Of a stretch of DNA of 64,000 bases, positions 49,099-63,933 are shown piece by piece. The stretch spans positions 806,001 through 870,000 of the forward strand of contig NZ_CP083723.1 in NCBI RefSeq assembly GCF_020150815.1. The letters run 5' to 3'. This DNA comes from Haloprofundus salilacus (GTDB taxonomy: Archaea; Halobacteriota; Halobacteria; Halobacteriales; Haloferacaceae). The notes under the pieces were generated by a model. It saw only the letters and a list, made by a program, of their open reading frames with translations. It was not told the origin of the DNA and did not search any database. Within the stretch, counting starts at the first letter, position 1, and each line of letters begins with the position of its first letter. The position numbers and the translations under genes are program-made.

Positions 49099-50421
49099 AT
49101 GTCCGAGCAGACTAGGCGAACCGCATCGAATCGAGACGTCGAGACACGGTACGAAGAGTACCTGATGCCCATCTGGAAGAGCCTCAACGTGCCGGTCGAG
49201 CGCGCGTCGGGTTGTACGCTCGAAGATTTCGACGGCAACGAGTATCTCGACGTCTTCTCCGGCATCTCCGTGGTCAACGTCGGCCACGGCAACGAGGCGG
49301 TCGTCGACGCGGCGAAGGCCCAACTCGACGAGTTCGTCCACGGCTGTACCTACGTCCACCCGCACGAACCCGCGGCCGACCTCGCGGAGAAACTCGCCGA
49401 TATCACGCCCGGCGACCTGCAGAAGTCGTTCTTCTGCAACTCCGGGACCGAGGCGGTCGAGGGGGCGATCAAACTCGCGCGGAAGTACACCGGCGGCAAG
49501 GAGATTCTCGCCTTAGAGATGGCGTTCCACGGCCGCACGCTCGGGAGTCTCGCGCTCACTGGCAACAAGACGTACAAGCGGGGGATGGCGCCGGTCATCA
49601 ACGACGTGACGCACGCGCCAGCGCCGTACGGCTACCGCTGCGAGACGTGCGACGGCGACGCCTGCACCGCCGAGTGCGCCGACCGAATCGACCGCATCAT
49701 CGACACCCACACGTCAGACGACCTCGCGGCCATCGTCGTCGAACCGGTGATGGGCGAGGGCGGCATCATCGTCCCCTCCGAGGCGTGGTTCCGGCGCGTG
49801 CGCGAAATCGCCGACGACAGGGGGGCGCTCCTCGTCGTCGACGAGGTGCAGGCGGGCTACGGCCGGACCGGCGAGATGTGGGCCATCGACCACTTCGACG
49901 TCGAACCGGACATCGTCACGCAGGCGAAGGGTATCGCTAACGGACTGCCGCTTGGCGCGTTCACCGCGTCGGCCGAGGTGGCGGACGCGTTCGGTCCGGG
50001 CGACCACCTCTCGACGTTCGGCGGGAACCCGGTCGCCTGCGCCGCCGCGCTCGCGACCATCGACGAACTGGAGAACGGCGTCGTCGACAACGCCCGCGAG
50101 CAGGGCGCGTGGCTCTCCGACCGACTCGCCGAACTGGAAGAGGAGTTCGACGTCGTCGGCGACACCCGCGGCCTCGGGCTGATGCAGGGCGTCGAACTCG
50201 TCGACCCAGACGAGACCGGACCGCTCGGCGTCGCCGCCGCACCGGACGCCGCGCTCGCGAAGCACGTCGGCGAGCGCCTCCGCGAGGACGGCGTCGTGAT
50301 GGGCGTCGGCGGGTTCTACAAGAACGTGATGCGGTTCCAGCCGCCGCTCGTCATCTCCCGAGACCAACTGGAGCGCGCCGTCGAGGCGCTCCGAGACGCC
50401 ATCGAAGCCGAGACGGCCTGA
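49099..50421 (+). CDS. class III aminotransferase (4-aminobutyrate/omega-amino acid type)
   Basis: A 440-residue PLP enzyme. GCTLEDFDGNEYLDVFSGISVVNVGHGN and CNSGTEAVEGAIKLARKYTGGKEIL are the fold's front; VDEVQAGYGRTGEMWAID holds the PLP Asp and QAKGIANGLPLGAF the lysine (about residue 276). It probably removes the amino group of GABA, beta-alanine or a related omega-amino acid. An odd feature is YRCETCDGDACTAEC (about 176-190), four cysteines that may bind a metal. ATTCG/CGAAT arms separated by 10 bases lie directly before the ATG (49071-49090). Confidence 0.88.
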   Translation: MSEQTRRTASNRDVETRYEEYLMPIWKSLNVPVERASGCTLEDFDGNEYLDVFSGISVVNVGHGNEAVVDAAKAQLDEFVHGCTYVHPHEPAADLAEKLADITPGDLQKSFFCNSGTEAVEGAIKLARKYTGGKEILALEMAFHGRTLGSLALTGNKTYKRGMAPVINDVTHAPAPYGYRCETCDGDACTAECADRIDRIIDTHTSDDLAAIVVEPVMGEGGIIVPSEAWFRRVREIADDRGALLVVDEVQAGYGRTGEMWAIDHFDVEPDIVTQAKGIANGLPLGAFTASAEVADAFGPGDHLSTFGGNPVACAAALATIDELENGVVDNAREQGAWLSDRLAELEEEFDVVGDTRGLGLMQGVELVDPDETGPLGVAAAPDAALAKHVGERLREDGVVMGVGGFYKNVMRFQPPLVISRDQLERAVEALRDAIEAETA

Positions 50422-50682: not shown

Positions 50683-52161
50683 TCAGCGATTCTCGTCGGG
50701 CCAGCGTTCGATGTAGACGGTCTCGTCGGTGTAGAACCGTATCATATCGTCGCCCTGTGCGTGGAGGTCGCCGAAGAACGACTCCTTGGCTCCGCCGAAG
50801 TGGTAGAACGCCATCGGCGCGGCGGTGCCGACGTTGACGCCGAGGTTACCGGCGTCGACCTCGTGGCGGAAACGCCGCGCCTCGCCGCCCCGCTCGGTGA
50901 AGAGGCTCGCGGCGTTGCCGAAGCGCGACTCGTTGACGATCGCGAGCGCGTCGTCGAAGTCGTCGGCGCGAATCAGCCCCAGCACCGGGCCGAATATCTC
51001 CTCACGCGCGACGGTCATCTCCGGAGTGACGTCGCCGAAGACGGTCGGCGCGAGGAAGGTGCCCGTCTCGGGGACCTCGGCGTCTCGGCCGTCGTAGAGG
51101 AGGGTCGCCCCCTCGGAGACGCCCGTTTCGACGTACTCCAGGACGCGCTCGCGGTGCTCGGCGGTGATTAGCGGGCCCACGTCCGACCCTGCGTAGAGAC
51201 CGTTGTCGACGGTGAGGTCGGAGACCGCCTCGACCAGCCGGTCGGCGAACTCGTCGTACACCGCCGCCTCGACGACCGCCGTCGGGTTCGCGAGACACCG
51301 CTGCCCGGAGTTGGCGAACGCCGAGGCGACGGTCTGCTCGACGGCGAACTCGAGGTTCGCACTCGCCGAGACGACGACGTGGTTCTTCGCGCCACCCTGC
51401 GCCTGCACGCGCTTGCCGTGTTTCGCGGCGGTCTCGTAGACGTGTCTGGCGACGGGGGTGCTGCCGACGAAGGAGACGCCGGCGACGTCCTCGTGTGCCA
51501 ACAGCGCGTTCACCGTCTCCGGACCGCCGTGCAGGAGGCTGACGACGCCGTCGGGAAAGCCCGCCTCCTCGACGAGTTCGACGATGCGCGTCGGCGTGAG
51601 CGGGTCGCGCTCGCTCGGTTTGAGGACGAACGCGTTGCCCGTCGCCACCGCGTACGGCAGGAACCACAGCGGGATCATCGCCGGGAAGTTGAAGGGCGTA
51701 ATCGCCGCGAAGACGCCGAGCGGCTTTCGGACCGCCGTCTCGTCGATGCCCGGCGCGGCGTTCGGCAGGTGTCCGGCCTGCATCAGCGACGGGATGCCGC
51801 AGGCGACCTCGACGTTCTCAATGCCGCGGCGAATCTCTCCCTTCGCTTCGGCGAGCGTCTTGCCGTGCTCCTGGACGAGTACCTCGGCGAGGTCGTCCTG
51901 CTGGTCCTCGAGGAGCGACTTCAGCCGGAACAGCGGCTGGATTCGTTCCTCGACGGGGGTTCGACGCCACTCGTCGAACGCGTCGAGGGCGGCCGCGACC
52001 GTCTCGTCCACGTCGGCGTCGTCGCTGAAGGCGACTTCGGCGAGCGTCTCTTCGGTCGCGGGGTCGACGACGTCTCGCCGCTCGTCTCCGGACGGGGCGC
52101 GCCACTCGCCGCCGACGAAGTTTCGTACAGTCTCGCCCTCGGCGATCGGTCTGACCGGCAT
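50683..52161 (-). CDS. mmsA: CoA-acylating methylmalonate-semialdehyde dehydrogenase
   Basis: A 492-residue aldehyde dehydrogenase of the MmsA type that turns methylmalonate or malonate semialdehyde into propionyl- or acetyl-CoA. ITPFNFPAMIPLWFLPYAVATGNAFVLKPSE and QGGAKNHVVVSASANLEFAVEQTVASAFANSGQRCLANPT (catalytic Cys about residue 286) are diagnostic: this family has no Glu in the usual ELGGK place, here QGGAK. It lies two bases after the previous gene on this strand, and ends a long operon-like run. Confidence 0.93.
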   Translation of the reverse strand: MPVRPIAEGETVRNFVGGEWRAPSGDERRDVVDPATEETLAEVAFSDDADVDETVAAALDAFDEWRRTPVEERIQPLFRLKSLLEDQQDDLAEVLVQEHGKTLAEAKGEIRRGIENVEVACGIPSLMQAGHLPNAAPGIDETAVRKPLGVFAAITPFNFPAMIPLWFLPYAVATGNAFVLKPSERDPLTPTRIVELVEEAGFPDGVVSLLHGGPETVNALLAHEDVAGVSFVGSTPVARHVYETAAKHGKRVQAQGGAKNHVVVSASANLEFAVEQTVASAFANSGQRCLANPTAVVEAAVYDEFADRLVEAVSDLTVDNGLYAGSDVGPLITAEHRERVLEYVETGVSEGATLLYDGRDAEVPETGTFLAPTVFGDVTPEMTVAREEIFGPVLGLIRADDFDDALAIVNESRFGNAASLFTERGGEARRFRHEVDAGNLGVNVGTAAPMAFYHFGGAKESFFGDLHAQGDDMIRFYTDETVYIERWPDENR

Positions 52162-52163
52162 GG

Positions 52164-53300
52164 TCACTCGATGCGCTCCTCTTCGATGACGATGTCGCGC
52201 GCCGCGAGTTCGTCGACGAACGCCTCGGGGTCGAGAACCTCCTCGGGCGGCTTCGCGCCGGTCGAGAGTGCGTCTCCGCGCCCGACCACGGCGGCGGCGA
52301 TACCCATGGGGACGCCGGTCCAGACGGCCGTCGCCTTCAGTCCCCAGTCGTCGAGGCGCGACTCGACCACCACCGACTCGCGGTAGTGCGCCCGCTCGCC
52401 GTCGGCCTCGCCGACCACGTCAACGCGGAACGACTTCCACTCCTCGACCGCCCCGGGCTTGGGCTGTCGGTCGAGGTGGAAGTCGAGGAACTCCCGCGGC
52501 GTCGTCTCGACGCCCTCGAACTCGACCGGCTCCTCGCTCGTCAGGTTCAGTCCGATGAGCACGTCGCAGATGTTCACGAGATCCGGCGAGAAAGCGACGC
52601 GGAAGTCGACCTCTCGGACGCCCTCGAAGACGTACGGCATCGTCGCGAGCTCGGAGTGGATGCTGTGGAACCCCTCGACCTCGCCGACGGGGTCGGGCAT
52701 CTCGTAGCGCTCGCGGCCCGAGAGCGGTTCGACCTCCGCGAACTCGCCGTCGTGGAAGACGACCGGGTTCATCGTCAGCTCGTCAAGAATCGTCTTCGCG
52801 GAGTAGGCGAACCCCTCGCCGCCGCCCTTCGCGCCGGTGCGGATGTGGATCTCCTCGACCCGGTTGAGGTGACTCGCCGCCTTCGCCGTCGCGACGTTCG
52901 TCAGGCCGGGGCTCGCGCCGATGCCGAGGACGGCCGTGAGGCCCGCCTCACGGAACCGGTCGTCCAGCTCCAGCTGTTCCTGCGTCTTGTGGTAGAGGCC
53001 GCCGAGGTCGAGGTAGTGCGCGTCGGCTTCGAGGCAGGCCTCCATCACGTCGAGGTTGAACGCGTACGGGAGCGCGTTCGCCGCGACGTCGCTGTCGGCC
53101 AGCAGGTCGACGACCGCCTCGTGGTCGGTGACGTCGACCGTCGCCGTCTCGACGGTTCCGGGGAGTTCGGCCGCGAACGCCTCGGCCGCCTCGCGGTCGA
53201 CGTCGGCGATGCAGAGTTCGTCGACCTCGTCGTTCTCCGCCAGTTCTCGCGAGGTGGCTCGGCCCATCGCGCCGCAGCCACCGAGTGCAGTAACCTTCAT
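52164..53300 (-). CDS. saccharopine dehydrogenase-family enzyme, lysine 6-dehydrogenase-like
   Basis: A 378-residue NAD(P)-dependent protein. It opens with a Rossmann segment MKVTALGGCGAMGRATSREL. ANALPYAFNLDVMEACLEADAHYLDLGGLYHKTQEQLEL, LGIGASPGLTNVATAKAASHL and the end ATAVWTGVPMGIAAAVVGRGDALSTG...PPEEVLDPEAFVDELAARDIVIEEERIE follow the layout of L-lysine 6-dehydrogenase rather than bifunctional saccharopine enzymes. The likely reaction is oxidation of a terminal amino group to an aldehyde, consistent with an aldehyde dehydrogenase gene one base upstream. Carboxyspermidine dehydrogenases are related, so polyamine chemistry is possible. Confidence 0.82.
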   Translation of the reverse strand: MKVTALGGCGAMGRATSRELAENDEVDELCIADVDREAAEAFAAELPGTVETATVDVTDHEAVVDLLADSDVAANALPYAFNLDVMEACLEADAHYLDLGGLYHKTQEQLELDDRFREAGLTAVLGIGASPGLTNVATAKAASHLNRVEEIHIRTGAKGGGEGFAYSAKTILDELTMNPVVFHDGEFAEVEPLSGRERYEMPDPVGEVEGFHSIHSELATMPYVFEGVREVDFRVAFSPDLVNICDVLIGLNLTSEEPVEFEGVETTPREFLDFHLDRQPKPGAVEEWKSFRVDVVGEADGERAHYRESVVVESRLDDWGLKATAVWTGVPMGIAAAVVGRGDALSTGAKPPEEVLDPEAFVDELAARDIVIEEERIE

Positions 53301-53301
53301 C

Positions 53302-54726
53302 TCAGTAATCTCTGTAGTTCATCATCACGGCCTTTACCTGCGTCATCGATTCGAGGTGCCACTTGCTGCCGTAGCGACCGCCCGACCCGCTCTCGCCGTA
53401 GCCGCCGAACGGGAGCAGTCGTTCCCAGTAGTTGTTCGTCTCGTTGACGAAGACGCCGCCCGCCTTGAGGCGATTGGCGGCGTCGTGCGCGCGGGCGAGC
53501 GAGTCCGTGAAGATGGCAGCCTGCAGCCCGTACCGCGAGCGGTTCGCTATCTCGATGGCCTCGTCGTAGTCGCGAGCGCGGATGATCGGGGTGACGGGTC
53601 CGAACGTCTCCTCGCGGGCGACCTCCATCGACTCGGTCACGTCGTCGAGCACCGCCGGCGTGTAGTAGAGACCGTCCGTCTCGCCGCCCGTCAGGAGCGT
53701 AGCACCCTCGCCGACCGCCGCCTCCACGTGGTCGACCGCCTTCCGCTGGATGCGCTCGGAGACCATTGGCCCGACGTCGGTCCCCTCCTCGAGGGGATCG
53801 CCGACGACGAGTTCGCGCGTCTTCTCGACGACCGCCTCGGCGAGCGCGTCGTGGACGCCCTCGGTGGCGATGACGCGCTCGGTGCCGCAGCAGACCTGTC
53901 CGGCGTTCCAGTTGCTCCCGACGACGATGCTCTCGGCCGCGTGGTCGACGTCGGCGTCGTCCAGCACGAGGATGGGGTCCTTCCCGCCCATCTCGAGGAG
54001 GCACTGCGCGTTTCGCTCGGCGGCCACCTTTGCGATCTCCTGTCCGACCGCCGTGCTCCCGGTGAAGGCGATGAGCCGGATATCCTCGTCGGCGACGAGC
54101 GAGGCGCCGGTGTCGCCCGCGCCCGTGACGAGGTTGAACGCGCCGTCCGGCAGCGAGGACTGGTCGAACGCCTTCGCGATGTGGTAGGCGGTCAGCGGCG
54201 TCTCCTCGGCGGGTTTGAACACGACCGGGTTCGCCGTCGCGATGGCCGAGTAGATGCTGCCGCCGGGCACCTCCAGCGGGAAGTTCCACGGGCTGATGAC
54301 GGCACACGGACCGTACGGCTCCCGCTGGGTGTACGCGAAGCGTCCGCGGTGTTCCGAGGGGACGACGTCGCCGAACAGTCGAATCCCGTCGTGGGCGTAG
54401 TCGTCGCTCGAACTGATGACGTACTCCGTCTCCTCGTACGACTCGTGGAGGGGCTTGCCCTCCTCGCGGGTGATGAGTTCGGCGATCTCGTCCTCGTGCT
54501 CTTCGAAGTAGTCGGTCACCTCGTCGAGCACGGCGGCTCGCTCGAAGGCGGTCATCTCGCGGAGTTCGCGCTCGGCCTCGCGGGCGGCCACAACCGCCTT
54601 TCCTACGTCGCGGTCGTTCGCCGCCGGGATCGTGTCGATAACCTCGCCGTCGATCGGGGACACCACGTCGATGCCCTCGTCGGAGTCGGCGTCGACCCAC
54701 TGTCCGTCTATGTACAGTTGTCTCAT
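53302..54726 (-). CDS. aldehyde dehydrogenase (NAD(P)-dependent)
   Basis: A 474-residue classic aldehyde dehydrogenase. ISPWNFPLEVPGGSIYSAIATANPVVFKPAEETPL, GSTAVGQEIAKVAAERNAQCLLEMGGKDPILVLDDADVDHA (Glu general base) and NAGQVCCGTERVI (catalytic Cys about residue 282) are present. It best resembles the lactaldehyde/succinate-semialdehyde branch. It is one base from the lysine 6-dehydrogenase-like gene, so it could oxidise aminoadipate semialdehyde or a similar product. An AT-rich TTTTTCAT about 35 bases upstream may be its promoter. Confidence 0.92.
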   Translation of the reverse strand: MRQLYIDGQWVDADSDEGIDVVSPIDGEVIDTIPAANDRDVGKAVVAAREAERELREMTAFERAAVLDEVTDYFEEHEDEIAELITREEGKPLHESYEETEYVISSSDDYAHDGIRLFGDVVPSEHRGRFAYTQREPYGPCAVISPWNFPLEVPGGSIYSAIATANPVVFKPAEETPLTAYHIAKAFDQSSLPDGAFNLVTGAGDTGASLVADEDIRLIAFTGSTAVGQEIAKVAAERNAQCLLEMGGKDPILVLDDADVDHAAESIVVGSNWNAGQVCCGTERVIATEGVHDALAEAVVEKTRELVVGDPLEEGTDVGPMVSERIQRKAVDHVEAAVGEGATLLTGGETDGLYYTPAVLDDVTESMEVAREETFGPVTPIIRARDYDEAIEIANRSRYGLQAAIFTDSLARAHDAANRLKAGGVFVNETNNYWERLLPFGGYGESGSGGRYGSKWHLESMTQVKAVMMNYRDY

Positions 54727-54830: not shown

Positions 54831-56357
54831 CTACAGGCTCGGCACGTCGAGGGCGACGTTCACCGCTTTGCTCTGGGTGTACTCCGCGAGCGCCTCCGCG
54901 GCGCACTCCCGTCCGATGCCCGACTGCTTGAAACCGCCGAACGGCGTCCCCGGGACCGTCCCGAAGTACTGATTCACCCAGACGCTCCCGGCCTGGATGT
55001 CGGCGGCCGCCCGGTGGGCCAAAGAGAGGTCGCTCGTCGCGACGCCGGCCGTCAGTCCGTACTCGACGCCGTTGGCGATTTCGATGGCCTCCTCGTACGA
55101 CTCGAACGTCACGAGGAACTGGACGGGACCGAACACCTCCTCGCTCGCGATTCGCATGTCGGGCGTCACGTCGTCGAAGACGGTCGGTTCGAGGTAGTAG
55201 CCGTCGGCCAGCGCCTCGCCGTCGGGGCGCGCGCCGCCGGTCAGCACCGTCGCCCCCTCCTCCCGCCCGAGTTCGAGGTACTCCGTCACCTTCTCGCGGT
55301 GGCTCTCGTAGCAGAGCGGTCCGAGATTCGTCTCCTCCGCGAGCGGGTCGCCGGGTTCGTAGGCGGCGACCTCGTCGAGGTAGCGGTCGAGGAACGCCTC
55401 CTTGACGTCCTCGTGGACGAGGATACGCGAGGCCGAGTCGCAGGACTGGCCCGCGTTGTAGAACCCGCCGACCGCGGCGGTCGACGCCGCCGCGTCGAGG
55501 TCGGCGTCCGGGAACACCACGAAGGGGTTCTTGCCCCCGAGTTCGAGCGTGACCGGCGTCACGCGGTCGGCCGCCGCGCGCATGACCTCTCTGCCGACCG
55601 GGACCGACCCGGTGAACGAGAGTTTCCGGACGTCCGCGTGGGCCGTCAGCGCCGTTCCCGCCTCCTCGCCGAAGCCGGGGACGACGTTCAGAACGCCGTC
55701 GGGGAGCACGCCTTCCGAGAGCTGCGCCGCGCGGACGACGGCGAGCGGGGCCTGCTCGGCGGGCTTGCAGACGCTCGCGTTACCGGCCGCCAGCGCCGCG
55801 CCCACCTTCCACCCCATCAGGAGGATGGGGTAGTTCCACGGGAGAATCTCCCCGGTGACGCCGTAGGGTTCGCGCCGGACGTAGGCGTGGGAGTCCGACC
55901 CCGTCGCGACCTGGTCGCCGCCCTGCGCCCGGGCGACGTCCGCGTAGTACTCGAAGAAGTTGAGGCCGTTCTCCACGTCCGCGCGCGCGAAGGAGAGCGG
56001 CTTGCCGACCTCGAGGCTCTCCAGTAGGGCGAGTTCGTCGAGGTGGTCGCGCATGACGTCGATCCACTCGCGGATGAGCGCCGAGCGCTCCGAGGCGGTC
56101 CTGTCGGCCCACTCGGTCTCGTAGCCCTCGCGGGCCGCCGCGACGGCGGCGTCGACGTCCGCTTCGGTGCAGCGGGCGACCGGGGCGATGGGTTCGTCGA
56201 CCGCGGGGTCGCGCGGGGAGAACGTCCGGCCGTCGGCGGCTGCCGCACGCTCTCCGCCGATCCACGCGTCGAAGGACGTCTCCGCGGCGGCTCGGTTCCT
56301 GGCTCGTTCGTGATTCTCGTCGATGCTGTCGGTGAAGTCGGTGAAGTCGGTAGACAT
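54831..56357 (-). CDS. aldehyde dehydrogenase (betaine/aminobutyraldehyde type)
   Basis: A 508-residue aldehyde dehydrogenase. LPWNYPILLMGWKVGAALAAGNASVCKPAEQAPL, RVTPVTLELGGKNPFVVFPDADLDAA and YNAGQSCDSASRILVHEDV (catalytic Cys about residue 306) with the ending GTPFGGFKQSGIGRECAAEALAEYTQSKAVNV fit enzymes for betaine, 4-aminobutyraldehyde or 3-aminopropanal. The extreme N-terminus carries a DFTDFTDSID repeat. It follows potA by 132 bases and is probably in the same transcription unit or has its own promoter. Confidence 0.92.
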   Translation of the reverse strand: MSTDFTDFTDSIDENHERARNRAAAETSFDAWIGGERAAAADGRTFSPRDPAVDEPIAPVARCTEADVDAAVAAAREGYETEWADRTASERSALIREWIDVMRDHLDELALLESLEVGKPLSFARADVENGLNFFEYYADVARAQGGDQVATGSDSHAYVRREPYGVTGEILPWNYPILLMGWKVGAALAAGNASVCKPAEQAPLAVVRAAQLSEGVLPDGVLNVVPGFGEEAGTALTAHADVRKLSFTGSVPVGREVMRAAADRVTPVTLELGGKNPFVVFPDADLDAAASTAAVGGFYNAGQSCDSASRILVHEDVKEAFLDRYLDEVAAYEPGDPLAEETNLGPLCYESHREKVTEYLELGREEGATVLTGGARPDGEALADGYYLEPTVFDDVTPDMRIASEEVFGPVQFLVTFESYEEAIEIANGVEYGLTAGVATSDLSLAHRAAADIQAGSVWVNQYFGTVPGTPFGGFKQSGIGRECAAEALAEYTQSKAVNVALDVPSL

Positions 56358-56489: not shown

Positions 56490-57716
56490 TCACTCGGTGA
56501 GGACGACGGCGTTGCTCGGCTTCCACCCGACGCGTATCTGTCGCCCGACGCTGAGATACTCTCCCTGATCTCGAATCTGCATGTCGACGGTCAACTGCTG
56601 GCCGTTGCGGAGGCGGACGACGAACTTCCCGACGTTCCCCTTGTAGATCTCGTCGACGACCTCCGCCTCGAAGTCGTTCGGCAGTCCCGAGACCTCGTCG
56701 CCGATGCGTATCTTCTCGGGGCGGACGGCGAAGGCGACCCGGCCGCTCGCCTCCGGCGTCTTCGGGACACGGAAGGAGAGACCGTTTCGTTGGACGACCG
56801 CCTCTCCGCCCGCTTCCCCGTACTCGCCGTGGACGAGGTTCGTCTCGCCGATGAAGTCCGCGACGAACTCGGTGTTCGGCTCCTCGTATATCTCGGTCGC
56901 GGTGCCGAGCTGTTCGAGGTGGCCGTCGTTCATCACCGCGATCTCGTCGCTCATCGTCAGCGCCTCCTCTTGGTCGTGCGTGACGTAGACGAACGTCGTG
57001 TTCAGCTCCTCCTGGAGGTTCTTCAGTTCGACCTGCATGTTCTTCCGGAGCTTCAGGTCGAGCGCGCCCAGCGGTTCGTCGAGCAGCAGGACGGTCGGCT
57101 CCGTGACGAGCGCGCGAGCCAGCGCGACGCGTTGCTGCTGGCCGCCCGAGAGTTCGCTGATGCGTCGGTCCTCGTACTCCGGCAGTTCGACGAGGTCGAG
57201 CGCGCGCGAGACGCGGGCGTCTATCTCCTCGCTCCCTTGGCGGCGGACGAGTCGCCGAAGCGACCCTGTGATACCGGTCGGACGCGTCGTCGCGCCGCCG
57301 GAGTCGCTTGTCTCGCCGCCGTCTCCAGCGACCTGTGACGAGGCGCGGGTCGCCTCGTCCGTCCCCTCGCCGGTGACGGTCCGTCGTTCGGGGATTCCCT
57401 GCATCTGGAGCCCGAAGGCGACGTTCTCGCCGACGGTCATGTGCGGGAACAGCGCGTACGATTGGAACACCATACTCGTGTCCCGTTCGAACGGCGGGAC
57501 GTCGTTGACCCGCTCGTCGCCGATGTAGACGTCGCCCTCCGTCGGCGTCTCGAAGCCCGCGATGCAGCGGAGCGTGGTCGTCTTCCCGCAGCCGCTCGGC
57601 CCCAGGAGCGTCAGAAACTTCCCGCGCTCGATAGAGAGGCTCACGTCGTCGACCGCGGTTACGTCTCCGAATCGCTTCGTGATGCCGTCGAGGCGTACGT
57701 CGTAGGTTTCGGGCAT
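56490..57716 (-). CDS. potA: ABC transporter ATPase, PotA-like, with a 50-residue insertion
   Basis: A 408-residue ATPase of the spermidine/putrescine importer class. Walker A is GPSGCGKTT (39-47), Q-loop [13 protein letters not shown] (83-95), signature [15 protein letters not shown] (189-203), Walker [13 protein letters not shown] (209-220), and a TOBE domain (about 310-400) ends it. Between the Q-loop region and signature, residues about 112-162 form an acidic, Gly/Thr/Ser-rich stretch followed by LRRLVRRQG that normal PotA lacks. It lies 12 bases after potD. Confidence 0.93.
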
Positions 57717-57728
57717 GGAATCTGTCGA

Positions 57729-58964
57729 TCAGGCGTTTTGGATCTCCGTCCAGGCCTCGTCGTACATCGTCGTCGCCTGGCCGATGTTCTGGATGAACTC
57801 GAGGTTCTCCATCGTCTGGTCGCTCGGATAGATGGACTCGTTCTCCAGTATCTCGGAGTCGATGTGCTCTTTGGCGGCTTCGTTCGGACTGGCGTAGTAG
57901 GTCCAGTTCGTGATCTTCGCGCCGATCTGTGGGTTCAGGTAGTAGTTCATGAACGCGTGCGCGGCGTTCGGATGCTTCGCCTCCGACGTGATGGCTCCGT
58001 TGTCCACCCAGACGACGCCGCCCTCCTTCGGGACGACGTAGTCGATGGGCGACGAGCCGTCCTCGTACGTCTCCCAGTACGCCGCGAACACGTCGCCCGA
58101 CCAGCCGTGGACCGGGCTGGCCTGCTTGTTGATGAGGTTCGTCTTGAAGTTCGAGGAGTCGTACGTCTTGAGCAGGTCCTTCTGCTGGATGAGCAGCTCT
58201 TTCGCCTCCTGTACCTCGCTCTCGTTTTTCGTGTTCAGCGAGTAGCCGAGCTGTTTCAGCGCCGCGCCGATCGTCTCGCGCATGTCGTCGAGCATCGTTA
58301 TCTGGCCGGACCACTCCTCGTTCCACATCGCGTCCCAGGAGTCGATGCTCACGTCCTCGCCGAGCATCTCCCTGTTGAAGCCGATGCCGGAGGTACCCCA
58401 CTGATAGGGCACCGAGTGCAGCGCATCGCCGGGGTCGTACGGCGCATCAGTGAAGCGTTCCGTGATGTTCTCGAGGTTGGGCACCTTCGACCGCTCGACC
58501 TGTCGAATCATCTCCTGGTCGGCCAGAACGCTGATCATGTAGTCGCTGGGGAAGATGAGGTCGTACTGGCCCGTCCCGCCGGCGTTCAGCTTGTTGAACA
58601 TCTCCTCGTTCGAGGCGTAGTTAGAGACGTTTACCTCCACGCCGTACGCCTGTTCAAACTCTGAGACTGTCTCGTCGGGCCAGTAGTCACCCCACTGGAA
58701 GATGTTCAGTCGGTCCTCCAGTTCGTAGTCCAGTTCCTGAAGCCCGTACTCCTCGCGAAGCGACGCGTCGCCGCCGTCTGCGCTTCCTCCGCCGCCCCCG
58801 GAGCCGTTCCCTCCGCCGTCCCCCGAGCCGTTCCCTCCGCTGTTCTCGCCGTCTCCGCCGCTGGTACAGCCGGCGAGTCCGGTGAGACCGACCGCGGTCA
58901 ACGAGCCGCTCGCTTTCAGGTACGTCCGCCGACTAATTTTTCGTTGCTTGTTCATCTCTTGCAT
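57729..58964 (-). CDS. potD: polyamine-type ABC solute-binding lipoprotein, PotD-like
   Basis: A 411-residue exported lipoprotein. The Tat motif is SRRTYLKASGS (11-21) and the lipobox LTGLAGC has Cys33. A linker of Gly, Ser and Asp follows (about 35-70), then the binding domain: EDRLNIFQWGDYWPDETVSEFEQAYGVEVNVSNYASNEEMFNKL, DLIFPSDYMISVLADQEMI and VVPKEGGVVWVDNGAI, as in spermidine/putrescine-binding proteins. TTG at 58982 opens the frame, but ATG 58964 gives a normal signal peptide. Potential ligands: polyamines or small cationic compounds. Confidence 0.94.
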   Translation of the reverse strand: MQEMNKQRKISRRTYLKASGSLTAVGLTGLAGCTSGGDGENSGGNGSGDGGGNGSGGGGGSADGGDASLREEYGLQELDYELEDRLNIFQWGDYWPDETVSEFEQAYGVEVNVSNYASNEEMFNKLNAGGTGQYDLIFPSDYMISVLADQEMIRQVERSKVPNLENITERFTDAPYDPGDALHSVPYQWGTSGIGFNREMLGEDVSIDSWDAMWNEEWSGQITMLDDMRETIGAALKQLGYSLNTKNESEVQEAKELLIQQKDLLKTYDSSNFKTNLINKQASPVHGWSGDVFAAYWETYEDGSSPIDYVVPKEGGVVWVDNGAITSEAKHPNAAHAFMNYYLNPQIGAKITNWTYYASPNEAAKEHIDSEILENESIYPSDQTMENLEFIQNIGQATTMYDEAWTEIQNA

Positions 58965-59041
58965 GCTTCTCTTTTCGCCCAATGGGTAGTATGTGGGATA
59001 AATATTGTGCTAAATTGGGGCCACAGACGAAGGATTTTCCT

Positions 59042-59896
59042 TCACCAGATCGGTCCTTCGATCCACTGCGCCGCGGCGACCACAGCCAGGGTGACCACGA
59101 GAATCAGCGTCGCGATGACGTTGACGCCGGGCGAGATGCCCTGTCTGACCATCGAGAAGAAGAAGATCGGGAGCGTGTTCTGGTTTCCGATGATGAAGAA
59201 CGTCACGACGAAGTCGTCGAAACTCATCGCGAACGCGAGCAGCGCACCCGCGACGACTCCGGGTTTGATCACCGGGAACGTCACGTAGCGGAACGTCTCG
59301 AGTTCGGTCGCTCCGAGGTCCTTCGCCGCCTCCTCGAGCGTCCGGTCGAAGCTCCTGAGCCGCGCGGCGACGACCACCGCGACGAAGCTGATGTCGAACG
59401 CGACGTGGCCGATGATCGCCGTGTGGACGCCGAGACCTATCCCGACCAGGTTGAAGAACAGAAGCAGCGAGATGCCCATCACGATGCTCGGGATGATGAT
59501 CGGCATGTAGACGACGCCGAGGAGGAACCGCTTGCCGGGGAAGTCGTGGCGGTCGAGCGCGAACGCGAGCATCGTCCCGAAGACGGTGCTGACGACGACG
59601 GTGACGAAGGCGATCTCGATCGAGTGGGCGAGGGCGGTGAACGCCGCTTCGGGGTTGACGCGCGCGACGACCTCACCGGCCAGAAGCGCCTCGTACCACC
59701 TCGTCGTGAAGCCCTGCCAGACGAGCGCGTACCGAGAGTCGTTGAAGGAGAGGACGACGAGGACGAAAATCGGGACGTAGAGGAAGAGGTAAACCAACAC
59801 CGTCTGCAGGAGCAGGAGGCCGTTCCCGCGCTCGAACAGTCGCGAGCGGGCACGCTTGAGCCGTGCGCCGAATCCGGGACCGTCGGCGAGGCTCAT
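59042..59896 (-). CDS. potC: ABC transporter permease, PotC-like
   Basis: A 284-residue inner permease with six helices. The EAA loop is EEAAKDLGATELETFRYVTFPVIKPGVVAGALLAF (about residues 185-220). VYLFLYVPIFVLVVLSFNDSRYALVWQGFTTRWYEALL is the PotC-type front. The start overlaps potB by 4 bases. Confidence 0.94.
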   Translation of the reverse strand: MSLADGPGFGARLKRARSRLFERGNGLLLLQTVLVYLFLYVPIFVLVVLSFNDSRYALVWQGFTTRWYEALLAGEVVARVNPEAAFTALAHSIEIAFVTVVVSTVFGTMLAFALDRHDFPGKRFLLGVVYMPIIIPSIVMGISLLLFFNLVGIGLGVHTAIIGHVAFDISFVAVVVAARLRSFDRTLEEAAKDLGATELETFRYVTFPVIKPGVVAGALLAFAMSFDDFVVTFFIIGNQNTLPIFFFSMVRQGISPGVNVIATLILVVTLAVVAAAQWIEGPIW

Positions 59897-60906
59897 ACCG
59901 ACTCAGCCTCCCCATACCGCAGGTAGACGGCGATCGCAGCGAGCATGACGCCCATGAGGACGAACGAGGCCGCCGAACCGAGCGGCCAGTTGCCGGCCGC
60001 GCCGAACTGGTTGGCGATGAAGTTCCCGATCATCTGACTGTCGGGTCCACCGAGCAGCTCCGGGATGACGTAGGCGCCGGTGCTCGGGATGAACACGAGG
60101 ATGCTCCCGGCGACGACGCCGGGCGCCGACAGCGGGAAGACGACGCGGCGGAACGCGTCGAATCGGTCGGCGCCGAGGTCCATCGCCGCCTCCTGCAGGG
60201 TGAAGTCGATCTGCTCTATCGTCGCGTACACCGGGAGAATCATGAACGGAATCCAAATGTAGACGAGGCCGATGAGAACCGCGAGCCGCGAGTTCATGAG
60301 GGACGCGCCGGCTTCGACGAACGGCAGAATCCCGAGCGCGTTCGTCAGGACGCTGTTGCCCGAGAGGAGAATCTGGATGGCGTAGATTCGGACGAGAAAC
60401 GACGCCCAGAACGGCAGGATGACCAACACGAGCAGCAGATCCTGGTACTCCTCGGGGGCGATGCGCCCGATGTAGTACGCCGCCGGGTAGCCGACGGCGA
60501 GCGAGACGAGCGTCGCGAACAGTCCGTAGGCGATGCTCTTCAGCGTGAGTTGGACGTACGGGGTCGGGTCCGTCGCGGCGAGTTCGAAGGGGACGACGAA
60601 CTCGACGAGCCACGCGAGCGTGTACCAGATCGCCTCCAGCACGTTCGCTCCGTCGGGGACGAAGAACGTCCGATACTGGTCGAGTCCGAGATACTCGAGA
60701 CCGATGAGCACCTCCCCGAACGCCCCGCGCTGGCCGAAGCTGTAGTAGAACATCACCCCGAGCGGGATGAGGAAAAAGAGCCCCAGCCAGAACGCGCTCG
60801 GCGCGAGATTGACCACGAGTCCGGCGAGGCGGTGGTTCCGCGCTGCGTCGATGGCCGCGCCCGACCGCCCGCGGGAGTCACGTTTTGACGTGGTTTCACT
60901 TGCCAT
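59893..60906 (-). CDS. potB: ABC transporter permease, PotB-like
   Basis: A 337-residue permease. LAPSAFWLGLFFLIPLGVMFYYSFGQRG, TFFVPDGANVLEAIWYTLAWLVEFVVPFEL, ILPFWASFLVRIYAIQILLSGNSVLTNAL and the EAA loop LQEAAMDLGADRFDAFRRVVFPLSAPGV are present. An extended first loop is longer than in bacterial PotB. It is the first gene of the potBCDA order and is divergent from the Lrp-type regulator 177 bases away. Confidence 0.93.
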   Translation of the reverse strand: MASETTSKRDSRGRSGAAIDAARNHRLAGLVVNLAPSAFWLGLFFLIPLGVMFYYSFGQRGAFGEVLIGLEYLGLDQYRTFFVPDGANVLEAIWYTLAWLVEFVVPFELAATDPTPYVQLTLKSIAYGLFATLVSLAVGYPAAYYIGRIAPEEYQDLLLVLVILPFWASFLVRIYAIQILLSGNSVLTNALGILPFVEAGASLMNSRLAVLIGLVYIWIPFMILPVYATIEQIDFTLQEAAMDLGADRFDAFRRVVFPLSAPGVVAGSILVFIPSTGAYVIPELLGGPDSQMIGNFIANQFGAAGNWPLGSAASFVLMGVMLAAIAVYLRYGEAESV

Positions 60907-61083: not shown

Positions 61084-61533
61084 ATGGACCTTGACGAGGT
61101 CGACCGCAAAATCCTGAAGATTCTACAGGCGGACGGTCGGCTCGCACTCTCGGAGATCGCTCGGCGGTTGAACATGGGTAATGCGACGATTCACGAGCGC
61201 GTCAACAGCCTCGAATCTCAGGGGTACATCCGACAGTACCGGGCGGTACTCGACGCCGAACTCCTCAGTATCGACCAGGTCGCGTTCGTCCGAGTGAAGA
61301 CCAACGCGGGACACTTCTCGAAAGTCGCCGAGCGGTTGGCCGAGGAGGCGGCCATTCAGGAGATCCACGAGATCACGGGGGATGCGGACCTCCTCCTGAA
61401 GGTCCGGGTGCGCGAACAGGCGGTGCTGAGCGAACTTCTGGCCACCATCGGGTCGTACGACGGCGTCACGGAGACAGCGACCGAGGTCGCTCTCCGCAGC
61501 GTGAAAGAAGAGTACGACTTGAACTTGGAGTGA
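61084..61533 (+). CDS. Lrp/AsnC-family transcriptional regulator
   Basis: A 149-residue regulator. DLDEVDRKILKILQADGRLALSEIARRLNMGNATIHERVNSLESQGYIRQYRAV is the HTH domain and VAFVRVKTNAGHFSKVAERLAEEAAIQEIHEITGDADLLLKVRV the RAM/ACT ligand domain. ATG 61084 gives the usual size; the upstream frame adds 46 low-quality residues. Divergent from potBCDA and followed two bases later by the deiminase-like gene. It probably senses an amino acid and controls both. Confidence 0.93.
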   Translation: MDLDEVDRKILKILQADGRLALSEIARRLNMGNATIHERVNSLESQGYIRQYRAVLDAELLSIDQVAFVRVKTNAGHFSKVAERLAEEAAIQEIHEITGDADLLLKVRVREQAVLSELLATIGSYDGVTETATEVALRSVKEEYDLNLE

Positions 61534-61535
61534 CC

Positions 61536-62408
61536 ATGTGGGACCTCGAACCTTCGGCGCGTAGCGAGTGGGGCCGCCTCCGACGGGTCCTCGTCCACGA
61601 ACCGGGCGAGGAGTTCAAATCCGTCGTCGATCCCGACGAGTGGAACTGGAGCGGCCTCCCCAGACAGGAGTCGGTCGCCGACGAACACGCGGCGCTCGTC
61701 GAGCAGTTGAAAGCCGACGGCGTCACCGTCGACACGCTCGGGACCGTCGGATCAGAGCTCGCGGAGTCGCTTTTCGTCCGCGACGTCGGTTTCGCCGTCG
61801 AGGGCGGAATCGTCGTCGGCAAGATGGTCGAGTCGACGCGCGTCGGCGAGGAGCGACGGCTGGTGGAGCGCGTCGTCGAACTCGGCGCGCCCATCTACCA
61901 CTCGGTCCACGGCTCCGGCGGGTTCGAGGCGGGTAACATGATCTGGATAGACGAGTCGACGGTGGCGGTCGGACGCTCGAAGACGACGAACGCCGAGGGA
62001 ATCCGTCAGGTCCGAACCGTCCTCGAGACGTTCGACGTCGACATCGTCGAGGTCCCCATCTTCGGAAGCACCGAGAGCTCCGGCCAGACGCACCTCGCGC
62101 TCGTCTTCGGCATGGTCGCACCCGATTTGGCGCTCGTCTATCCGCAGGCCGTTCCCGCCGAGTTCCTCTCGCTGCTCTCTGACCGCGGTATCGACGTCGT
62201 CGAGGTTCCGATGCGCGAACAGCGAAACCGCGCGACCAGCACTATCATGACCGAACCGGGGCGCGTGCTCCTGCCCAACGGGAATCCGACCGTCCGGTCG
62301 GCGCTTGAGTCACGCGGTCTCGACGTCGTCACGCTGGACATCCCCGAAACTCGAAAGACGGGCGGCGGTCTCAAGGGGCTCATCCTCCCCCTCGAACGAG
62401 ACGACTGA
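61536..62408 (+). CDS. arginine deiminase/amidinotransferase-fold protein lacking the catalytic cysteine
   Basis: A 290-residue protein of the guanidine-modifying (pentein) superfamily. RRVLVHEPGEEF (16-27), FVRDVGF (80-86, Arg-Asp), GSGGFEAGN (126-134, Glu131), GQTHLAL (183-189, His186) and the final TGGGLKGLILPLERDD follow the family order. In arginine deiminase and DDAH the last block carries the nucleophile Cys; here that position is Gly281. The HxD pair is HLA, and the whole chain has no cysteine. It may therefore be inactive, a binding protein, or use other chemistry. It begins two bases after the regulator. Confidence 0.85.
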   Translation: MWDLEPSARSEWGRLRRVLVHEPGEEFKSVVDPDEWNWSGLPRQESVADEHAALVEQLKADGVTVDTLGTVGSELAESLFVRDVGFAVEGGIVVGKMVESTRVGEERRLVERVVELGAPIYHSVHGSGGFEAGNMIWIDESTVAVGRSKTTNAEGIRQVRTVLETFDVDIVEVPIFGSTESSGQTHLALVFGMVAPDLALVYPQAVPAEFLSLLSDRGIDVVEVPMREQRNRATSTIMTEPGRVLLPNGNPTVRSALESRGLDVVTLDIPETRKTGGGLKGLILPLERDD

Positions 62409-62455: not shown

Positions 62456-62507
62456 CATTCGCGCTTGTAGCAGAACTTTTTCGGATGTTGTTCGTACTCT
62501 CCAAAGA

Positions 62508-62513: not shown

Positions 62514-62538
62514 GTCACTGTTATCCATGTGGCGTTCA

Positions 62539-63933
62539 ATGAGTCTCGGTGACAAACAGCAAGACATCGACCACGCCGAACGTCTCCGCGAACGGACGCC
62601 GAAGAGCCGCGAGTTCCACGACCGCGCGGCGGCGATAACGCCGCTCGGAGTCGAATCGAACGTGCGCGCGTTCGACCCGTATCCGTTCTACGTCGAGAGC
62701 GCCAGTGGGTCGTACATCACGGACATCGACGAGAACGAGTATCTCGATTTCCTGCTCGCGCTCGGACCGATCATCCTCGGACACGGCAACGAGGAGGTTC
62801 GCGAGGCGGTGAAGGCGCAGGTCGACAAGTGCGACCTGACGGCGACGCCGCAACCCATCGCCTTCGAGTACATGGAGAAGGTCGCGGAGATGACGCCGAG
62901 CATCGAGACGGTCCGCCTCGCCAACAGCGGCACCGAGGCGACGATGCACGCGATGCGGGTCGCGCGCTCGTACACGGGGAAAGACAAGGTGGCGAAGCCG
63001 GAGGGCGGCTACGCAGGGGCACACGATTACGCGCTGCAGAGCGTCTACGCTACCGAAGAGGCGCTCGGCCCGGCGGACGAGCCGAGCACCGTCTCCTACG
63101 GCACCGGCATCCCAGACGCGGTGAGCGAGACGATGGTCGCGTTCCCGTTCAACGACAAGGAGGCGACCGAGAAGATTCTGCGCAAGCACGCCGACGACCT
63201 CGCGGCGGTCATCATCGAACCGGTGATGTTCTCGGCCGGCTGTCTGAAGCCCCGCGACGGGTACCACGAGTTCCTCCGCGAGCTTACCGAGGAACTGGGC
63301 GTCGTCCTCATCTGGGACGAGGTGATGACCGGCTTCCGCCTCGGCCCCGACAGCGCGCAGGGGCGTTTCGGCGTCACCCCCGACATGACGGCGTTCGCCA
63401 AGGTGGCCGGCGGCGGTTACCAGCTCGCCGGCTTCGGCGGCAGGGCCGAGATCATGGAGGAGATCATCCCGCCCGGAAAGGACGAGGGGCACAAGTGGAA
63501 CTCCTCGGCGTTCCACGGCGGCACATACAACGGTCACCCGGTGTCGGCCGCGGCGGGGCTGAAGACGCTCGAAATCCTGCAGGAGGGTGACGTCTACGAC
63601 CACATCGAGCGACTCGGCGACAAACTCTTCGGCGGACTCCAGGAGGTGGCCGACGACGTCGGTCTCCCGGTGAACGTCCAGCACATCGGCTCGATGGGCC
63701 AGGTCTACATGACCGACCACGACATCCACTACTACCGCGACACCTGGCACGCGAACGAACAGCGGTTCGCCGACTGGTGGCTCGAAGCCGCCGGCCGCGA
63801 GGTGCTCTTCGGAAATCCGATGCAGGGCGAGCGGTTCTTTACAACCTACACCCACACGGACGAGGAGATCGACCGCGCGCTCGAAGTCGCCGAGGAGGCG
63901 TTCCGGGCCGTCGACCACGAGTACGAGGACTGA
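62539..63933 (+). CDS. class III aminotransferase/aminomutase-like PLP enzyme
   Basis: A 464-residue enzyme. DPYPFYVESASGSYITDIDENEYLDFLLALGPIILGHGN and RLANSGTEATMHAMRVARSYTGKDKVAKPEGGYAGAHDYAL are close to glutamate-1-semialdehyde aminomutase. WDEVMTGFRLGPDSAQGRFGVTPDMTAFAKVAGGGYQLAGFGG supplies the PLP Asp and lysine (about residue 288). The genomic context (Lrp, deiminase-like protein, Pot transporter) suggests an amino-acid or polyamine substrate instead of tetrapyrrole synthesis. Start fixed by the TATA box. Confidence 0.86.
   Translation: MSLGDKQQDIDHAERLRERTPKSREFHDRAAAITPLGVESNVRAFDPYPFYVESASGSYITDIDENEYLDFLLALGPIILGHGNEEVREAVKAQVDKCDLTATPQPIAFEYMEKVAEMTPSIETVRLANSGTEATMHAMRVARSYTGKDKVAKPEGGYAGAHDYALQSVYATEEALGPADEPSTVSYGTGIPDAVSETMVAFPFNDKEATEKILRKHADDLAAVIIEPVMFSAGCLKPRDGYHEFLRELTEELGVVLIWDEVMTGFRLGPDSAQGRFGVTPDMTAFAKVAGGGYQLAGFGGRAEIMEEIIPPGKDEGHKWNSSAFHGGTYNGHPVSAAAGLKTLEILQEGDVYDHIERLGDKLFGGLQEVADDVGLPVNVQHIGSMGQVYMTDHDIHYYRDTWHANEQRFADWWLEAAGREVLFGNPMQGERFFTTYTHTDEEIDRALEVAEEAFRAVDHEYED

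Follow-up and report, generated by a model that had tools for sequence, protein, structure and literature searches.

The locus

The window (the whole stretch of Haloprofundus salilacus DNA analyzed here, 64,000 nucleotides) contains a small gene for a protein of the ADI/DDAH fold that lacks cysteine, hereafter the pentein. It lies directly behind a gene for an Lrp/AsnC regulator and ahead of a class III aminotransferase gene (AT3), and genes for transport and catabolism run in the opposite direction. The relevant features are the following:

49099..50421, plus strand: second class III aminotransferase (AT3b), which adjoins AT3 in some other loci
50683..52167, minus strand: CoA-acylating methylmalonate/malonate-semialdehyde dehydrogenase (TIGR01722, 538.7 bits; cut-off 448.5)
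52164..53300, minus strand: saccharopine-dehydrogenase-like protein
53302..54726, minus strand: aldehyde dehydrogenase 2
54831..56357, minus strand: aldehyde dehydrogenase 1 (an aldehyde ferredoxin oxidoreductase instead in 5 of 21 loci)
56490..57716, minus strand: potA-like ABC ATPase (TIGR01187, 364.4 bits; cut-off 355.6)
57729..58982, minus strand: potD-like solute-binding protein
59042..59896, minus strand: potC-like ABC permease
59893..60906, minus strand: potB-like polyamine-type ABC permease
61084..61533, plus strand: Lrp/AsnC regulator, the obligate partner, present in exactly those 17 of 391 genomes that encode the pentein
61530..62408, plus strand: cysteine-less pentein with a probable GTG start (ATG at 61536)
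62376..62378, plus strand: codon of Gly281, at the place of the catalytic cysteine; Gly in 21 of 21 orthologues
62533..63933, plus strand: AT3, with its own promoter-like box, CAAAGATTTAT, at 62502

The pentein gene is intact and its product carries glycine at the nucleophile position

Translation of positions 61536–62408 (plus strand) yields 290 residues, numbered here from the ATG at 61536, in a frame that is open throughout. The sequence-only reading had taken this ORF for an intact gene without frameshift, which was borne out; the start, however, is probably the GTG at 61530 because the GTGA there overlaps the stop codon of the Lrp/AsnC gene, and 18 of the 20 other orthologues have a 4-bp ATGA overlap at that place. 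Arg82-Asp83, Glu131, the EAGN block (131–134), His186, and the HLA block (186–188) are all present as described earlier, and the C-terminal block is KTGGGLKGLILPL.

The product matched Pfam ADI (PF02274) with 52.4 bits (cut-off 22.8), DDAH_eukar with 51.8 bits (cut-off 23), and the sequence of a solved structure (PDB) at 1.1e-13. An AlphaFold2 model of moderate quality (pLDDT 64, pTM 0.68; 85 of 290 residues under pLDDT 50) matched the folds of 4bof (VIA Z 16.3) and 1h70 (Z 14.6) over the whole length, the maximum being 16.5. By its alpha/beta propeller fold and by sequence homology, the protein is a member of the pentein (guanidino-group-modifying) superfamily. Gly281 aligned with the catalytic cysteine in pairwise alignments to 4bof and 1h70 (the latter being the C249S mutant, with Ser there), in the profile-to-PDB alignment, and again in profile-to-profile alignments (hhalign) against the bacterial and haloarchaeal cysteine-bearing groups. 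The ORF is, thus, an intact ADI/DDAH-type pentein with Gly281 in place of the catalytic cysteine, as the earlier reading had it.

With ADI (PF02274; solved as 4bof and 1rxx), it shares the whole-length fold, the REQ and GGG blocks, and the equivalents of Asp83, Glu131, and His186, but it lacks the cysteine, has Ala188 for the second guanidinium-binding Asp, and is shorter (∼290 versus ∼405 residues); it remains far below the NCBIfam arcA equivalog cut-off (76.9 versus 489.1 bits). DDAH (1h70) and haloarchaeal DDAH/arginine-dihydrolase-like proteins agree with it in length and single-domain fold and can be aligned end to end, and its EAG motif is that of 1h70. Those proteins do carry the cysteine, however, and the scores remained below the NCBIfam DDAH cut-offs (57.2/340, 53.9/450, and 24.8/300). 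The nearest relatives found are plasmid-borne proteins of Thermomicrobium, Kozakia, Ensifer, and Shinella, annotated as “arginine deiminase family protein” and 28–36% identical from end to end (hhalign probability 100 for the group); all four contain GGGxHC, the cysteine of which is missing from the pentein. They are encoded next to amino-acid or other ABC transporters, and the annotated stretches show no pairing with an Lrp gene (that of Ensifer is unannotated).

The complete lack of cysteine, although real, is not unusual by itself: given the cysteine content of 12 genes of the window (32 of 4,823 residues), the chance of finding none in 290 residues is ∼0.15, and the neighboring Lrp, PotB, and PotC proteins have none either. 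What matters is the loss at the one catalytic place. A hidden cysteine or a frameshift can be dismissed, as the frame is open and the family has no conserved cysteine column; orthologues contain zero to three scattered cysteines each, and at most 3 of 17 rows share a Cys in any one alignment column. This also excludes that the catalytic cysteine resides elsewhere in the family.

The cysteine-less proteins form one clade kept by selection

Among 391 haloarchaeal genomes, 17 (H. salilacus included) encoded a protein 64–100% identical to the pentein, the remaining matches being distant (24–38%). Four further sequences from named records (L048, L049, L066, and L125) brought the set to 21 distinct orthologues. 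An alignment-based search of genome contigs returned nine haloarchaeal loci, of which L048 and L049 were new and the other seven, on contigs of matching length, were taken as genomes already found; the corresponding single-protein query of the contigs gave no match. Bacterial relatives were drawn from plasmids only; of the 32 plasmid records whose identity was below 60%, 9 were read. No viral relatives were found. Annotated records label the orthologues, too, as “arginine deiminase family protein.”

All 31 distant relatives inspected have the C-terminal cysteine (18 of 18 in the alignment and 13 of 13 further ones by motif), whereas none of the 21 close homologues does. The cysteine-less proteins constitute a single clade (support 100/100) on a long stem (0.98). 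Its nearest group comprises the four bacterial proteins and a paralogue from genome G060, but this link is weak (81/56). The dN/dS values were 0.06–0.13 in nine closer pairs and 0.16–0.27 in three distant ones.

A PF02274 search of 28 genomes identified the pentein as the sole match in 16 of the 17 genomes that have it, with one more ADI in G346; the 11 genomes with AT3 but no pentein gave no ADI-type protein by this profile. A distant, cysteine-bearing paralogue is additionally present in G017 and G060. That the pentein is the helper of an active paralogue was rejected since 16 of the 17 genomes lack a second PF02274 protein.

Pentein, Lrp, and AT3 are patchily distributed, as are genes that move between haloarchaea; several of the other loci lie on large plasmids, and four other genomes of the same genus (G019, G022, G081, and G099) have no close pentein, Lrp, or AT3.

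Part of the guanidinium pocket is retained

One alignment of the 21 cysteine-less orthologues and 18 cysteine-bearing relatives was used to compare the pockets (cysteine-less; cysteine-bearing):

Position 281: Gly 21/21; Cys 18/18
Position 235: Ser 21/21; Asn 18/18
Position 150: Thr 21/21; Arg 16/18
Position 188: Ala 20/21 (one Thr); Asp 15/18
Position 134: Asn 21/21; Asp or Ser (Asp 12/18)
Position 132: Ala or Val 21/21; Gly 18/18
Position 83: Asp 21/21; Asp 11, Asn 7
Position 131: Glu 21/21; Glu 18/18
Position 186: His 21/21; His 17/18
Position 102: Arg 21/21; Arg 18/18

Gly281 and His186 are, therefore, conserved as a group among the haloarchaeal homologues. Compared with the catalytic hydrolases, the clade has lost the C-terminal cysteine nucleophile and kept the His-Glu pair and the first guanidinium-binding Asp (21 of 21). 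The second guanidinium-binding Asp and the carboxylate-binding Arg of ArcA are gone (Ala188 in 20 and Thr150 in 21 of 21), and Arg102 is kept. In its enzyme fold, kept by selection without the catalytic motif, the clade shows one of the two marks of a pseudoenzyme, the other being a lack of catalytic activity.

In ADI and DDAH, a histidine is stabilized by a glutamate and a cysteine acts as the nucleophile via a covalent intermediate, according to an excerpt of PMC11659421; an excerpt of PMC8826395 assigns to the shared enzyme core a cysteine, a histidine, and a pair of acidic residues that bind guanidine. Read against this scheme, the alignment leaves the cysteine-less clade with the pair that activates water and with one of the acidic binders, but without the nucleophile. 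Ala188 alone is no argument against activity since the bacterial DDAH 1h70 has HLK rather than HLD at that place. Both Arg150 and Arg102 equivalents presumably bind the carboxylate of the substrate. If so, the replacement of Arg by Thr150 would make arginine the less likely ligand, and a polyamine or agmatine-like compound, which has no alpha-carboxylate, would fit better.

Pentein and Lrp/AsnC genes travel as a unit

The upstream neighbor contains the helix-turn-helix (PF13412/PF13404) and the AsnC ligand domain (PF01037) typical of Lrp/AsnC regulators. In 21 of 21 loci, the pentein gene directly follows this gene, overlapping it by 4 bp in 18; the spacing is −8 in one and −1 in another, and that of the window is +2, or −4 with the GTG start, which makes it the 19th case. 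With the Lrp protein as the query (E up to 1e-45), exactly the 17 of 391 genomes that have the pentein were matched, and a search of 72,556 plasmid records (E up to 1e-20) gave four matches, exactly the records with a pentein more than 60% identical. The pair was still together in L045 and L046, where AT3 is 2.7 and 1.4 kb off, respectively, and both its members were missing from 12 of 12 loci with AT3 only (the 11 pentein-less genomes and, in Haladaptatus caseinilyticus, an additional AT3 copy). Two loci without the pentein, L097 (99/76 with L031) and L165 (91/81), fall inside the pentein-bearing AT3 clade, and their positions suggest that Lrp and pentein were lost jointly there. The pentein and this one specific Lrp/AsnC thus travel as a unit; the coupling asserted by the sequence-only reading turned out to be stronger than claimed, the regulator being an obligate neighbor in every locus seen.

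Some caution is nonetheless due. On the aminotransferase tree, the pairing requires only three changes, so that with two to three independent pairs, the sign test (p 0.5) cannot reach significance, and 4-bp gene overlaps are common in compact genomes. No clear palindrome that could serve as a shared Lrp operator was seen by eye in 16 aligned divergent intergenic regions (L032 was left out because of an inserted nitrilase-like gene).

AT3 is located downstream of the pentein on the same strand and within 140 bp in 19 of 21 loci, and the box CAAAGATTTAT, a candidate BRE/TATA element, precedes it in 19 of 19 adjacent loci. The window contains a single copy of this box, as do 14 of 16 context stretches, and the box is also found ahead of AT3 in the pentein-less L097. 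AT3 is, therefore, probably transcribed from a promoter of its own, and Lrp and pentein look like a two-gene operon. Copies of AT3 at least 66% identical were found in 28 of 391 genomes, 11 of which have no pentein; neither these nor the second H. caseinilyticus copy have an Lrp or pentein gene nearby. AT3 slightly exceeded the cut-off for HemL (NF000818; 398.5 versus 398), but its restriction to 28 of 391 genomes rejects such a housekeeping function.

A conserved transport and catabolism cluster surrounds the pair

The genes potB-potC-potD-potA are divergent from lrp-pentein in 20 of 21 loci. The exception, L037 (genome G017), has no potB, potC, or potD in the stretch and only a 59-residue remnant of potA, and its lrp, pentein, AT3, and aldehyde dehydrogenase genes are intact. 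The PotA-like ATPase reaches its subfamily cut-off; as the PotB-, PotC-, and PotD-like proteins are below the equivalog cut-offs, a polyamine as the substrate of the transporter is only putative. The match of the ATPase to PotA profiles is split in two, and the protein has an acidic/Ser-rich insert around residues 112–157. Beyond the pot genes follow either an aldehyde dehydrogenase (16 of 21) or an aldehyde ferredoxin oxidoreductase (5 of 21: L034, L036, L043, L045, and L066, where it lies between potA and aldehyde dehydrogenase 2), with both enzymes at this place in none of the 21 loci, and then a second aldehyde dehydrogenase. Within the fetched stretches, a saccharopine-dehydrogenase-like gene is present in 14 of 21 pentein loci; the malonate-semialdehyde-type dehydrogenase was matched in the window, L043, L045, L066, and L126 (same genome as L036). 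An FAD oxidoreductase gene is found near AT3 in 21 of 21 (that of H. salilacus itself was seen through L047). In four loci (L032, L048, L049, and L125), a gene for a nitrilase-like carbon-nitrogen hydrolase, which scores far below every NCBIfam equivalog cut-off, is inserted between potB and lrp. The polyamine-type cluster recognized earlier, thus, consists of conserved uptake and catabolism genes.

In contrast, loci with AT3 only have a glutamine-synthetase-family gene in 7 of 12 cases and a class I glutamine amidotransferase (GATase1) gene in 6 of 12, a layout that resembles that of gamma-glutamyl polyamine breakdown; a glutamate-putrescine ligase is reported for Haloferax mediterranei in an excerpt of PMC8394153. 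Neither gene was present in any of the 21 pentein loci within the fetched stretches, which is why the pentein cluster looks like one for polyamine-type amine catabolism without gamma-glutamylation, with a putative substrate. Two alternative polyamine-type routes would, then, be arranged around one aminotransferase (L097–L102, L106, and L164–L166 versus the pentein loci).

A possible sensor or cysteine-independent enzyme

Tentatively, we favor a repurposed pentein that would act as a ligand-sensing pseudoenzyme with its Lrp, the ligand probably being a cationic amine or a compound with a guanidine group. Covalent cysteine catalysis would have been lost once, at the base of the haloarchaeal clade, after which the protein was kept, along with Asp83, Glu131, and His186 of the former guanidinium pocket. 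The ligand, probably of the polyamine or agmatine type, would be imported by the adjacent Pot-like transporter and most likely be sensed by the pentein together with the Lrp/AsnC protein encoded just upstream in the overlapping frame; through contact with each other, the two may adjust expression of both the divergent transport/aldehyde dehydrogenase operon and the aminotransferase operon. Precedents for a pseudoenzyme with an enzyme fold that does the ligand sensing on behalf of a transcription regulator are Gal3/Gal80 of yeast and DhaQ/DhaS of Lactococcus; their folds and regulators are different, and for the pentein, such sensing is a proposal. Some observations count against it: Lrp has a ligand-binding domain of its own (PF01037), so that an extra sensor is not needed; His186, the partner of the catalytic base, is more than binding strictly needs; and the few independent pairing events, the common 4-bp overlaps, and the lack of a visible operator weaken the link to Lrp.

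The main rival, which we consider less likely, is an enzyme in which His186-Glu131 activate water, or Ser235 is the new nucleophile, and which would hydrolyze or rearrange an intermediate of the polyamine-type pathway without a covalent thiouronium step. His186, Glu131, Asp83, and Arg102 are fixed throughout the clade, and Ser235 has replaced an Asn that is invariant in the cysteine-bearing relatives. The distribution of glutamine-synthetase and GATase1 genes would also suit a pentein serving a different route. In L037, moreover, the pentein, Lrp, and aminotransferase genes are intact although most of the pot genes are gone. Against this, the pentein gene is coupled to a regulator, whereas AT3 has its own promoter-like box in every adjacent locus, and every hydrolase or transferase of the superfamily known to us uses cysteine. 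The cysteine is also part of the enzyme core in the excerpt of PMC8826395.

It is improbable that the pentein serves, without catalysis of its own, in the structure or assembly of a pathway enzyme (the aminotransferase or the FAD oxidoreductase) rather than as a partner of Lrp: both enzymes are present in all 21 pentein loci, but they also occur without the pentein, which Lrp never did in what was searched. A dead, decaying copy, to which the loss of the cysteine and of four further active-site residues might point, is refuted as far as sequence goes by 21 intact orthologues in a fully supported clade, dN/dS of 0.06–0.13 in the closer pairs, and invariant pocket residues. The sequence-only reading had proposed a pseudoenzyme that binds arginine or agmatine, or else a new activity; either may hold, arginine itself being the less likely ligand. 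Probably, the pentein is either a metabolite sensor for Lrp or a cysteine-independent enzyme (with water or Ser235 as the nucleophile) of an uncharacterized haloarchaeal polyamine pathway.

Implications

A pentein that does without cysteine catalysis has a precedent: the translation factor eIF6, a non-enzymatic protein, shares the superfamily and has the fold without that chemistry, but no link to an Lrp. An excerpt of PMC11659421 lists eIF6 as a superfamily member that forms a separate cluster in the network. Within the open-licence literature, no report was found of a Cys-less ADI/DDAH group in which this loss is fixed, or of a pentein-Lrp pair. Either a sensor or a cysteine-independent enzyme, if proved true, would have no precedent known to us: an ADI/DDAH-type group that has a defined genetic partner and in which the loss of the nucleophile is fixed and selected.

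Cysteine catalysis is what defines the enzymes of the superfamily, and the database label “arginine deiminase family protein” is contradicted by the residues of the clade. A selected, clade-wide exchange of the nucleophile, accompanied by four pocket changes and one regulator, makes it possible to test cleanly how an enzyme fold becomes a sensor or changes its mechanism. The finding also suggests that haloarchaea have a polyamine-type catabolic route separate from the gamma-glutamyl one, which in other species lies beside related aminotransferases.
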